50,056 nt of DNA. Source: Nitriliruptoraceae bacterium. GTDB taxonomy: Bacteria > Actinomycetota > Nitriliruptoria > Nitriliruptorales > Nitriliruptoraceae. The translations under genes and the position numbers were made by a program. The stretch's first letter is position 1. Each line of letters starts with the position of its first letter. Positions 6,741 to 11,428 of this stretch are shown piece after piece. The DNA lies in the NCBI GenBank assembly GCA_003563915.1, contig PWTE01000381.1, positions 1 through 50,056 on the forward strand, read 5' to 3'. The notes under the pieces were generated by a model. It did not search any database. It worked only from the letters and a program-made list of their open reading frames with translations, and was not told where the DNA came from.

Positions 6741-6774
6741 CGAACTGCGGCCGACGGTGCCGGTGGGAGGCTGT

Positions 6775-6780
6775 TACCGT
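6775..6780 (+). promoter_or_regulatory. Candidate -10 hexamer TACCGT before rimK operon
   Basis: TACCGT lies 27 nt upstream of GTG 6808, which also has a GAGAGGAGAG ribosome binding site. It is probably the start of the rimK, HEAT-like, HD-GYP transcript. Confidence 0.45.
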
Positions 6781-6807
6781 GCCGAGCGGACGCCCGAGAG
6801 GAGAGCG

Positions 6808-8013
6808 GTGAACCTCGCCATCCTGTCCCGCGCGAGGGACAGCTACAGCACCCGCCGGCTGGTCGCTGCAGCGGAGGAACGTGACCACCAGGTGCGTGTG
6901 CTCGACACGCTCCGCTTCGCGATCGACCTCACCGGCGACGAACCCGACCTGCAGTACCGCGGGAAGGCTCTGGCGGACTACGACGCCATCCTGCCCAGGA
7001 TCGGGGCGTCCATCACGTTCTTCGGGATGGCGGTGGTCCGCCAGTTCGAGCAGATGGACGTCTACACACCGACGACCGCCGCGGGGATCGCCAACTCGCG
7101 CGACAAGCTGCGGTCGATGCAGATCCTCTCCCGTCACGACGTCGGGATCCCCGCGACCGCGTTCGTCCGGGACCGCGCCGACGTGATGCCAGCGATCGAG
7201 CGGGTCGGTGGCGCCCCCGTGGTCATCAAGCTCCTGGAGGGGACCCAGGGCATCGGCGTGATCCTGGCTCCGGACAACAAGGTCGCCGGCGCGGTGATCG
7301 AGACGCTGCAGTCCACCCGGCAGAACGTGCTGATCCAACGCTTCGTCTCGGAGAGCAAGGGCCGCGACATCCGAGCGTTCGTGCTCGGTGACCGTGTCGT
7401 CGCGGCCATGCGGCGGGTCGCTCAGGGTGACGAGTTCCGGTCCAACGTCCACCGTGGCGGGTTCGTGGAGTCGGTCGAACTCGACGAGGAGTACCAGCGG
7501 GTCGCGGTGAAGGCCGCGCAGATCATGGGACTCAAGGTCGCCGGGGTCGACATGCTGGAAGGCAAGGATGGCCCGAGCATCATGGAGGTCAACTCCTCCC
7601 CGGGCCTCGAGGGGATCGAATCAGCGACCCAGTTGGACATCGCCGGCGCGGTGGTCGACTACGTCGCGAACCAGGTCGACTTCCCAGAGCTCGACGTCCG
7701 TCAACGGCTCACCGTGAGCACCGGGTACGGCGTCGCCGAACTGCTCGTGCGAGAGGGCCTCGACCTGGTCGGGCGCACCCTCGCCGAGTCCGGTCTGCGT
7801 GAACGTGACATCTCGGTGCTGACCCTCACGCGTGACGCCAAGGTGATCCCGAACCCGCGCGGACACCGCGAGCTGGAAGCGGGCGATCGGCTCCTGTGCT
7901 TCGGACGTCTCGAGGAGATGCGTGACCTGGTTCCGGCGCGGCGTCGTCGGCGTGCGCGCGCACAGCTCGAGCCGCTCCCCGACGACCCGCTGCACGAGGA
8001 GGACGACAGCTGA
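6808..8013 (+). CDS. rimK: RimK-type ATP-grasp ligase fused to a TrkA-C (RCK_C) domain
   Basis: A 401-residue protein; GTG 6808 follows GAGAGGAGAG. Residues 1-295 match RimK, the alpha-L-glutamate ligase that adds glutamates to ribosomal protein S6. Visible are the N-terminal RimK domain, the ATP-grasp lysine in VVIKLLEGTQGIGV, the SESKGRDIRAFV segment and the metal-binding IMEVNSSPGLEGIE. E. coli RimK ends near residue 300. Here about 80 more residues (297-375) follow, with RLTVSTGYGVAELLV, LVGRTLAESGLRERDI and LEAGDRLLCFGRLEEM: the layout of a TrkA-C/RCK_C domain, which elsewhere gates potassium transporters and in some proteins binds cyclic di-AMP. A basic, then acidic tail ends the protein. 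The fusion suggests allosteric control of the ligase; that is inference. Confidence 0.88.
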   Translation: MNLAILSRARDSYSTRRLVAAAEERDHQVRVLDTLRFAIDLTGDEPDLQYRGKALADYDAILPRIGASITFFGMAVVRQFEQMDVYTPTTAAGIANSRDKLRSMQILSRHDVGIPATAFVRDRADVMPAIERVGGAPVVIKLLEGTQGIGVILAPDNKVAGAVIETLQSTRQNVLIQRFVSESKGRDIRAFVLGDRVVAAMRRVAQGDEFRSNVHRGGFVESVELDEEYQRVAVKAAQIMGLKVAGVDMLEGKDGPSIMEVNSSPGLEGIESATQLDIAGAVVDYVANQVDFPELDVRQRLTVSTGYGVAELLVREGLDLVGRTLAESGLRERDISVLTLTRDAKVIPNPRGHRELEAGDRLLCFGRLEEMRDLVPARRRRRARAQLEPLPDDPLHEEDDS

Positions 8014-8039: not shown

Positions 8040-9905
8040 CTCGGAGTCGAGATCGACGGGGACACGGGACGTGACGTCGCGGCGCAGCGAGCGCTCCTGC
8101 GCCAGCTGGGGGTCGGCCTCGGGGTCCACCGCCTGTACCCGGATGACCCGAACGCCAGCGCCTTCCTCGCGGCGGTCGAGCGGATCCAGGACGCGACACG
8201 CACGGCGCTGAGCTTCGGACCGTTCACGGTCGAGGTCCGATCGGGGTGTTTCATCCTCGATGATCGAGCGCTCGAGGACGAGCCGACGCGGCGGCTGGCG
8301 AGAGCCTGCTACGAACGTCGGATCGAGCACGTGGCGGTCGCTGCACTCCCGTCCCGTGAGGAGCTCGCCGCTTGGTACGAACTGCTCGGTCGTGACCCGC
8401 ACGAGGTCGACGAGGCCGGAGGCATGGAGCCCCTGTCGAGCGCCGCCGGCATCACGTCGATCCGATCCGCGGCTGGTGCTCCGGAACCGGCGACGGGAGA
8501 GGAGGTGGCCGACCACCTGCTCGGTCTGGCGGACTGGGTCGGCACCGTCGCCGAGGAGCCCAGCGCACCGGAGGTCACAGAGCTCGAGCTCGCCGCAGAG
8601 GAGACCGCGGAGCAGCTCTACGAGCGCCTGCGCGAACTCTCCGATCGCATCGGCGCGGATGGCACCGTCCGGTCGACCTTCTTCCGACGGGCAGCCTGGC
8701 TCGTGGACGAGCTCCCGGTGCAGGAACAGGCGAGGTTCGGACGCCTCATCATCGACCGCCTCCAGCAGGACCCGTTCGCGGAGCGCTTCGCCGGACACCT
8801 GAACGACCTCGCGCTGGCGACCCTGATCGTGACCGTCGCTCGTCACGAGCGTCTCGATGCCAGCGACCTCGCTCGCGACGTCGGCCGAACGGCAGAGCGC
8901 CACGGCACCCTGCTACGTCTGGTCGACGCGGTGAGTCAGAGTCTCGCCGATCTGGAGGATGCGCACAGGCTCCGGCGCCATGGCGGGCACGAGCAGGTCG
9001 GCCCCCTGCAGGCGGCCGTCGATCCCGCGGTCCTCTCGAGCGTCAGCGCGGCGATCTCCGAGGAGGACCGCGAGCTCGCCGAGAGCTTCCCGCTGGAGGT
9101 GGAGCAGGGCCGTGCTCTGGCCTTGGTCACGCTCGTCGACGTGTTCCTCGCCGGACCCCGGGAGGAGCAGCTCCCGAGGCTGCTCGAGAACGTCACCCTT
9201 CGGCTCCGCGAGGCGGTGGTCCGCGGGGACGCGGCGCTGGTCGGTGAGGTCATGGCCGCGCTCGAACGCGGCGTGCAGGTCGCCTCGCCGGAGGTCCGCG
9301 CCGCGATCGAGCGGGCGTGGGCGCAGACCCTGACAGGCCAGGTGGTGGCTGACGCGGCGGTCTCGCTGGCTCGGGAGGGATCCCGACTGCAGGCTCGCGT
9401 GCTCGAGCCGTTCGGTGCCGCGGCGATCGGTCCGGTCGTGCGCTCCCTCGGTGAGGACGTCGGCGACGCGATCAAGGAGGAGCTCTCGCACCTGCTCGGA
9501 GAGGTCGCCGAGGGGCACCGCGCGCTGCTGCACGATCAGGTGAGCCGCCAGCGTCCCGACGTGATCGCGCAGCTGCTTCCCGTCGTGGCGCGCGCCGATG
9601 ACCCCTCGGCTCAGGCGTTGCTGGCGAGGTTGGCGTCACGATCCGAACCAGAGCTCCTCCTGGCGGTCGTCGACGTCCTGGAGCGCCAACCGCCGGTCAC
9701 CGCGGCCTCCACGGTCGCCGGGGTGGCGCGGCGAGCCGCAGCACCCGAGGTGCGCCGACGGAGTCTGGAGGTCCTGGCGGGACTCGGCGAGCCGGGACGT
9801 GAGGAGCTGCAGGCGCTCGGAAGCGGCCGGGCTGAGCCGCGGCTGCCCTTCCGCTGGCGATGGACCGCACGACGGCTGCTCCACCGCGCCAGGAGACCCG
9901 GATGA
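8040..9905 (+). CDS. HEAT-like repeat protein with unresolved start
   Basis: The frame is open from 8040 to 9905 (about 621 residues) just after an in-frame TGA at 8037. It contains no ATG, GTG or TTG before GTG 8331. The stretch before 8331 is clearly coding: it carries LLRQLGVGLGVHRLYP and LARACYERRIEHVAV, which align with the start of the next protein. The extent is therefore given from 8040. The N-terminal 130 residues form a module shared with the HD-GYP neighbour. The rest is almost all helical, with repeated LL..V..R.DDP..QALL-type units resembling HEAT repeats. There are no transmembrane helices. It probably is a scaffold or interaction partner for its two neighbours. It overlaps the next gene by ATGA. 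A CTG at 8010 with GAGGAGG upstream would read only nine codons to the TGA. Confidence 0.7.
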   Translation, partial: LGVEIDGDTGRDVAAQRALLRQLGVGLGVHRLYPDDPNASAFLAAVERIQDATRTALSFGPFTVEVRSGCFILDDRALEDEPTRRLARACYERRIEHVAVAALPSREELAAWYELLGRDPHEVDEAGGMEPLSSAAGITSIRSAAGAPEPATGEEVADHLLGLADWVGTVAEEPSAPEVTELELAAEETAEQLYERLRELSDRIGADGTVRSTFFRRAAWLVDELPVQEQARFGRLIIDRLQQDPFAERFAGHLNDLALATLIVTVARHERLDASDLARDVGRTAERHGTLLRLVDAVSQSLADLEDAHRLRRHGGHEQVGPLQAAVDPAVLSSVSAAISEEDRELAESFPLEVEQGRALALVTLVDVFLAGPREEQLPRLLENVTLRLREAVVRGDAALVGEVMAALERGVQVASPEVRAAIERAWAQTLTGQVVADAAVSLAREGSRLQARVLEPFGAAAIGPVVRSLGEDVGDAIKEELSHLLGEVAEGHRALLHDQVSRQRPDVIAQLLPVVARADDPSAQALLARLASRSEPELLLAVVDVLERQPPVTAASTVAGVARRAAAPEVRRRSLEVLAGLGEPGREELQALGSGRAEPRLPFRWRWTARRLLHRARRPG

Positions 9906-11428
9906 GCCGCGAGGAGGAACGTCAGGAGCTGGCGGGGGACCTGCTCCGCGAACTGTCGAAGGCCCGGCAGTCGGCCCTGCTCTACCCCTTCGGGCATCCC
10001 GAACGACGCGTGCTCGGGCAGGGTCTGTTGGAGCGCGCCCGCGCGCTCCAGGACCGGACGGATACGGGCAACCCGTCGGTGTTCGTCGACCGTGGCGGCT
10101 TCTACCTGGGACCGATCCTGTTGCCCCGCGAGTCGCTGTCCCTGGGACGGCTCGCGGAGGACCTGGAGCGCGCCGGGGTCGAGTCGCTGACGCTGACCCC
10201 AGGGCTCGCAGCCGAGGACTTCGATCACCTGTTGACCCTGCTGGGCGGGGAGCCCGTACCCGAGGAGGACCTCGGCGGGGTACGCGTCAACGTCGTGCGA
10301 CCGCTGCACCGAGACGAGCAGGACTGGGAACACCGGCTCACGGAGCTCCGACGTGCCTACGCGAGCGGCGTGACCACGCTGCGCACGGCATCGGCGCGGG
10401 TCGCGGCGGGCGAGCCCGTGGATCTCGAGAGTGCCTCGGCGGTCGTCGAGCGCCTCCACGACGAGGTCGAACACGACCCTGGGTACGGCTTGCTGCTCAG
10501 CGCGGTCAAGTCCTACGACGAGTACACCTACTTCCACATGGTCAACGTCTGCCTGCTGTCGGTGGCGTTGGGACAGCTGATCGGCCTGCGTCGTGACCAG
10601 GTGATGGTGCTGGGCCTCGGCGGGCTGTTGCACGACATCGGCAAGGTCTTCGTGCCGCAGGACGTGCTGAGCGGCACCGGGCGGTTGGACGAGGAGGGCT
10701 GGCGACTGGTGCAACGCCATCCGGTCGACGGCGCCGGCCTGCTCCTCTCTACCGGGGAGGGCCTCTACCACCCGGCAGCCGCCATCCTGCTCGAGCACCA
10801 TGCGGCCTACGACCTTTCGGGCTACCCGAGGTTGCACGACCACCACCCGTCGCTGCCGAGTCGGTTGGTCTCGGTCGCCGACAGTTTCGATGCGGTGACC
10901 AGCCAGCGCTCCTACCGGGACCCCCTCGATCGGCACGGCGCGCTCGAACTGCTCGCGTCGGCTGCCGGCCACGGGCTCGACCCCCGCGCCGTCGCAGCCT
11001 TCCAGCGCCTCCTCGGCCGGTATCCGGTCGGGTCGCTCGTCCGTCTCACCTCCGACGAGGTGGCCGTCGTGGTGCGGCAGCGGGCGACCGCGCCCGACCG
11101 GCCGACCGTCCTGGTGCTGCTCGATCACACCGGCACCCCGACGGAGGTGGAGGAACGGGACCTGGACGAGGAACCCGAACGTACGCCCAAGGTCGCCGAG
11201 CGGATCGACCCCGAGGTGGTGGGTATCGACCTGGCACGGTTCGTCGTCAGTGGCCAGCTCCACGAGCTACGCCCCGTCCGGCCACGTCCTGGGGGTCTGG
11301 TGCACGAACCCGCGCCAGGCGAGCACGCCCCTCGTGGGTACGTCGACACCCACGCCGAAGGGCAGGGGCACCACGAGCATCTGGATGGTGACCCCGATCC
11401 CGACGTCGCCCCACCGATCGAGGACTGA
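9902..11428 (+). CDS. HD-GYP domain protein with degenerate GYP motif
   Basis: A 508-residue protein. ATG 9902 overlaps the previous stop (ATGA), so translation is coupled. Residues 1-150 form the module shared with the upstream gene (ALLYPFGHP, FVDRGGFYLGP, RAGVESLTL). Residues about 200-385 are an HD-GYP domain: YFHMVNVC, GLLHDIGKVFVP, QRHPVDGAGLL, HHAAYDLSGYP and VADSFDAVTSQRSYR. HD-GYP proteins hydrolyse cyclic di-GMP with a two- or three-metal centre. The usual HHE...DGxGYP is altered here: the Glu is Ala and DG is DL, so activity or metal number may differ. The tail is acidic and disordered. No membrane helix or receiver domain is seen; the shared module may be the input. Confidence 0.87.
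   Translation: MSREEERQELAGDLLRELSKARQSALLYPFGHPERRVLGQGLLERARALQDRTDTGNPSVFVDRGGFYLGPILLPRESLSLGRLAEDLERAGVESLTLTPGLAAEDFDHLLTLLGGEPVPEEDLGGVRVNVVRPLHRDEQDWEHRLTELRRAYASGVTTLRTASARVAAGEPVDLESASAVVERLHDEVEHDPGYGLLLSAVKSYDEYTYFHMVNVCLLSVALGQLIGLRRDQVMVLGLGGLLHDIGKVFVPQDVLSGTGRLDEEGWRLVQRHPVDGAGLLLSTGEGLYHPAAAILLEHHAAYDLSGYPRLHDHHPSLPSRLVSVADSFDAVTSQRSYRDPLDRHGALELLASAAGHGLDPRAVAAFQRLLGRYPVGSLVRLTSDEVAVVVRQRATAPDRPTVLVLLDHTGTPTEVEERDLDEEPERTPKVAERIDPEVVGIDLARFVVSGQLHELRPVRPRPGGLVHEPAPGEHAPRGYVDTHAEGQGHHEHLDGDPDPDVAPPIED

Follow-up and report, generated by a model that had tools for sequence, protein, structure and literature searches.

Two adjacent genes in a 50,056-nucleotide stretch of DNA from a Nitriliruptoraceae bacterium (the window) encode a HEAT-like protein and an HD-GYP protein. 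The original prediction, made from the letters of this stretch, was that both proteins begin with copies of one duplicated module. This raises the question of whether the resemblance reflects homology and, if so, what a common N-terminal domain could do for a pair of neighboring proteins. The genes and the two module copies are placed as follows.

8052 to 9905, + strand: gene of the HEAT-type protein, 617 codons when counted from the putative ATC start; the frame is open from 8040 to 9902, with the stop at 9903 to 9905
9902 to 11428, + strand: gene of the HD-GYP protein, 508 codons, with a start ATG that overlaps the HEAT gene's stop as ATGA
8079 to 8465, + strand: common N-terminal module, HEAT-side copy (profiles and AlphaFold model)
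9908 to 10303, + strand: common N-terminal module, HD-GYP-side copy (profiles and AlphaFold model)

Profile comparison supports homology of the two N-terminal modules

We found that the features listed in the original prediction do occur in the same order and register in both proteins: LLR.L........LYP, a strand with V..G.F.L, RLA, and a helix with EL or ED. When the two window sequences were compared on their own by BLASTP, they were 25% identical with an E value of 0.24, which is not significant and which would suit a resemblance due to chance or to a common composition (GC-rich DNA and helices rich in Leu and Arg). Profile comparisons argue strongly against this explanation. With 10 relatives on each side, hhalign gave a probability of 93 to 94%, E values of 1.5e-7 to 3e-7, and a score of 49; none of 200 column shuffles scored above 20, and a reversed profile scored 14. 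Wide profiles, built from 38 HEAT-side and 39 HD-GYP-side modules of 16 families, aligned over 135 columns with a probability of 99.7%, an E value of 2.5e-26, and a score of 162, far beyond the maximum of 15.6 seen in 100 shuffles. Taxonomically separate halves of these profiles concurred (E = 6e-16 and 3e-14), and the HD-GYP-side HMM directly matched HEAT-side proteins of far relatives (L092, E = 4e-8; L090, E = 3.9e-7). The predicted structural elements also follow the same order in the two modules. The wide-profile result and its shuffles rule out chance similarity, to which we give practically no credence. As judged from these profiles, the N-terminal modules of the HEAT-like and HD-GYP proteins are homologous, with residues ~10 to 138 of the former corresponding to residues ~3 to 134 of the latter; a common stretch of about 130 residues had indeed been proposed.

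AlphaFold2 models of the two proteins were made separately (pLDDT, 91 and 79), and their element orders were compared. Both show helix-helix-strand-strand-helix-strand-helix-strand, with the following boundaries.

HEAT-side model: helix 3-28, helix 36-53, strand 58-63, strand 66-69, helix 77-88, strand 93-96, helix 102-112, strand 137-140
HD-GYP-side model: helix 3-25, helix 33-51, strand 59-63, strand 66-69, helix 79-90, strand 93-98, helix 104-114, strand 127-131

The HEAT-side model has two additional short helices ahead of the last strand. The module is thus predicted to be an alpha/beta domain that opens with a helical hairpin, whose loop carries LYP..HP, and continues as strand-strand-helix-strand-helix-strand. 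Similar LYP..HP N termini are also known from myxobacteria, on HEAT as well as on HD-GYP proteins.

No consistent Pfam or NCBIfam family was assigned among 46 modules, no PDB sequence matched the module below an E value of 0.05, and a Foldseek search of the PDB with either model returned no fold at E ≤ 0.001. With the HEAT-side model, Foldseek returned no viral match either. A known named domain such as GAF, PAS, or a DUF was rejected, since there is no curated family, solved sequence, or solved fold to which the module could be assigned. We found no paper on this HEAT/HD-GYP pair or its module. The description of an unnamed domain that is joined to HEAT repeats in one protein and to HD-GYP in the other is borne out by profile comparison, by predicted structure, and by the tree described below.

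HEAT-side and HD-GYP-side modules separate in a tree

In a tree of 77 modules, HEAT-side and HD-GYP-side copies part almost cleanly, with 2 label changes, compared to 26 in shuffles. Because of this near-clean split, the unrooted tree would fit one ancient separation of the module copies followed by co-inheritance. The sole stray row is L106, a 1,398-residue protein that combines the module and HEAT repeats with GGDEF and AAA_16. This protein and a second one with GGDEF and AAA_16 are placed as follows.

L106:6024-10217 (genome G284): large protein in which GGDEF and AAA_16 precede the module; HEAT repeats also present
L166:6573-9998 (genome G294): large protein with GGDEF and AAA_16 before the module

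The gene pair is kept together across actinobacterial families

Full-length matches of both window proteins were found in the same 10 genomes of the 61 of the class, its own included. The nearest named relative found in a scan of named genomes was a Nitriliruptoraceae metagenome-assembled genome (MAG). We then considered 41 module-HD-GYP loci drawn from across the phylum, and all 41 have a HEAT-type open reading frame directly upstream on the same strand. In 37 of them, this upstream protein carries a recognized module. The other four (L094, L096, L097, and L101) have an upstream HEAT-type frame in which no module was recognized; that of L094 is cut off by a contig end, whereas in L096, L097, and L101, which belong to a single family, a short HEAT partner that lacks the module stands next to an HD-GYP protein that retains it. 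Most HEAT/HD-GYP junctions have a 4-base overlap (ATGA or GTGA). When neighboring genes were compared all against all, only the HEAT and HD-GYP genes were conserved across the 16 families and the flanks varied, so a larger operon was rejected. One 1.8-Mb genome (G181; L090 and L091) carries three strongly diverged HEAT/HD-GYP pairs, each complete. Since this pairing recurs in many actinobacterial families, the HEAT and HD-GYP proteins probably function as a single signaling unit.

Distances among the HEAT proteins and among the HD-GYP proteins correlate at 0.89 (≤0.22 when permuted), a correlation that would also come from shared vertical inheritance alone. Together, the gene pairing and the correlated distances show a functional or inheritance link and not contact.

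The window HEAT-like protein itself matches HEAT_2 (PF13646) below the cutoff, at an E value of 0.33, whereas 35 of its 38 relatives match this family, the best at 3.8e-33. Thus, the HEAT label stands for the relatives and is weak for the window protein. The HEAT_2 match of these relatives is the likeness to HEAT repeat proteins; what sets the present proteins apart is the below-cutoff match of the window protein, the N-terminal module ahead of the repeats, and the phosphodiesterase gene that follows. No obvious membrane segment was seen in either window protein. PADLOC reported nothing for the window proteins, and relatives gave only repeat- or ATPase-type matches; a defense system was accordingly rejected.

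Of 397 genomes, 62 had a match to the wide module HMM. Ten further module proteins were scanned, eight of which carry HEAT repeats, one HD-GYP, and one GGDEF-AAA. Within this sample, the module occurs together with HEAT repeats and c-di-GMP enzymes. Solitary module-HEAT proteins of 700 to 1,300 residues (L154 to L169) come from several other families. Searches by tblastn for plasmid-borne relatives found none.

These patterns bear on how the two proteins might be linked. The pair persists in L096, L097, and L101, where the HEAT partner is without the module, so module-module contact cannot be the sole link, and the existence of solitary module-HEAT proteins also counts against it as the sole link. 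Both observations would suit an arrangement in which each protein uses its own module, as a homodimer or for the same ligand or third partner, so that the two serve one pathway and never touch. We consider this rather unlikely, given that strict adjacency and gene overlap over 16 families suggest matched amounts and direct partnership. The loss of the module from the HEAT side in these three loci would also agree with mutual binding at an interface formed by the HEAT repeats or by the catalytic domain, the module being a relic of descent or having a separate role in each protein. Set against this idea, which we judge improbable, are the presence of the module in both proteins at 37 of 41 loci and the retention of its fold signature.

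The HD-GYP protein retains a catalytic core

The window HD-GYP protein matches the HD superfamily (HD_5, 3e-17; HD, 3.6e-10), and all 39 of its relatives have an HD match. The metal-ligand pattern H..HD..H..HH..D and the GYP motif are all present in the window protein and near-invariant in the 39 relatives. Its core is placed as follows.

10535 to 10903, + strand: HD-GYP catalytic core with H (HMVN), HDIGK, RHPVDG, EHHAAYDLSGYP, and VADSFD; 7 of 8 PmGH metal ligands kept

This core is like that of PmGH, the Persephonella marina GAF-HD-GYP phosphodiesterase (PDB codes 4mcw, 4mdz, and 4me4), to which the HD-GYP profile aligned with an E value of 3.4e-45. The metal ligands of PmGH are E185, H189, H221, D222, H250, H276, H277, and D305 (PMC4159591). 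In an alignment, the equivalent of E185 in the window protein is Tyr, which differs from PmGH and corresponds to the two-metal subgroup, while the other seven ligands are present, as are the Lys after HD and the Tyr of GYP. By the grouping used in PMC4159591, a two-metal active site is likely in this protein.

PmGH dimerizes via its N-terminal GAF domain and a long helix (PMC4159591). The window protein has a comparable order of N-terminal control domain, long helix, and catalytic domain; its AlphaFold model places the unnamed module at the position of the PmGH GAF domain, followed by two long helices. It is chiefly because the N-terminal domain and helix of PmGH dimerize, and because the module is likewise placed, that we regard the module as a candidate dimerization or control domain. 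Unlike PmGH, the HD-GYP protein described here always has a HEAT partner gene adjacent.

Cyclic di-GMP context and the upstream RimK-type gene

GGDEF proteins were present in 20 of 20 pair genomes tested; since GGDEF is common, its presence lends little weight to a c-di-GMP unit. The window genome gave 13 matches to GGDEF, 2 to MshEN, and none to PilZ or FlhA-type proteins. Among the 10 pair genomes of the class, 3 have FlhA-type flagellar export, 3 have PilZ, and 9 have MshEN, the last compared to 42 of 51 other genomes of the class. Pair genomes of the class do not stand out in these outputs, and a link to a c-di-GMP output was therefore rejected.

At 6757 to 8013, just upstream of the pair, is an ATP-grasp ligase of the RimK type that carries TrkA_C at its C terminus, and a RimK-type gene has this position in 3 of 3 genomes of the genus (the window genome, G002, and G003). 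In Pseudomonas RimABK, RimA is an EAL c-di-GMP phosphodiesterase that controls RimK (PMC4741518). The likeness is that a RimK-type ligase gene adjoins the phosphodiesterase pair in this genus; the differences are that HD-GYP takes the place of EAL, that RimK carries TrkA_C, and that the RimK neighbor is seen only in this genus. A RimABK-type system was rejected because the phosphodiesterase is HD-GYP rather than an EAL RimA and no RimB was seen adjacent to the window pair.

The HEAT gene probably begins with ATC

Position 8073, at which the region of the original prediction begins, does not carry a start codon. The HEAT frame, open from 8040, holds no ATG, GTG, or TTG from the upstream stop until 8331, which lies inside the module. 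Genome G003 likewise has no standard start ahead of the module. We noted the following candidate signal.

8043 to 8054, + strand: putative ribosome-binding site GGAG (8043 to 8046) and putative ATC start (8052 to 8054) of the HEAT gene

In each of G000, G002, and G003, LLRQ is preceded at a distance of 14 residues by an ATC that follows GGAG or GGAAG by 5 to 6 bases. Three species of the genus thus keep an ATC and a ribosome-binding site at equivalent positions (in the window, L002, and L003). The ATC of G002 comes immediately after a GTG, which could serve as the start instead. Conservation of this arrangement suggests AUC as the probable start codon of the HEAT gene in this genus, at 8052 in the window. 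The infC genes of G000 and G002 (L171 and L172) also have an apparent ATC start, after GGAGG, and that of G000 has no standard start available; an ATC start of infC is the classical kind of nonstandard IF3 start. AUC is a known rare start codon that is disfavored by IF3 (PMC4611024). Such a start would hold translation of the HEAT/HD-GYP pair low.

A working model for the pair

Module homology, strict gene pairing, gene overlap, intact catalytic residues, and the near-clean split of the modules are the computed support for a working model in which both genes are translated together to give a c-di-GMP phosphodiesterase unit of two proteins, with the module serving in dimerization or control. 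We regard this model as evenly poised between right and wrong. In the most likely mechanism, the modules would pair as homodimers, heterodimers, or both, and the two proteins would bind each other with the modules as interface. The HEAT protein would be the regulatory or scaffold side; it would bind a cell component or signal and, via the paired modules and connecting helices, set the activity or location of hydrolysis of c-di-GMP, the presumed HD-GYP substrate. Strict conservation of the pair and its frequent translational coupling make plausible the role in hetero-oligomerization or shared sensing that had been suggested for the module. A broader reading, which we hold tentatively and think somewhat doubtful, is that a new signaling domain defines a heteromeric c-di-GMP phosphodiesterase with regulatory HEAT and catalytic HD-GYP subunits joined by paired module copies, that such enzymes are widespread among actinobacteria, and that diguanylate cyclases, too, are fused to the HEAT-side form.

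HD-GYP enzymes are usually viewed as controlled by a sensor domain on the same chain. A conserved partner gene with a copy of the same N-terminal domain means that control of HD-GYP may come from a second protein. A description of the module would give an annotation to many HEAT and HD-GYP proteins of actinobacteria that are now unclear, and the pair offers a defined two-gene unit for testing partner control of c-di-GMP breakdown.
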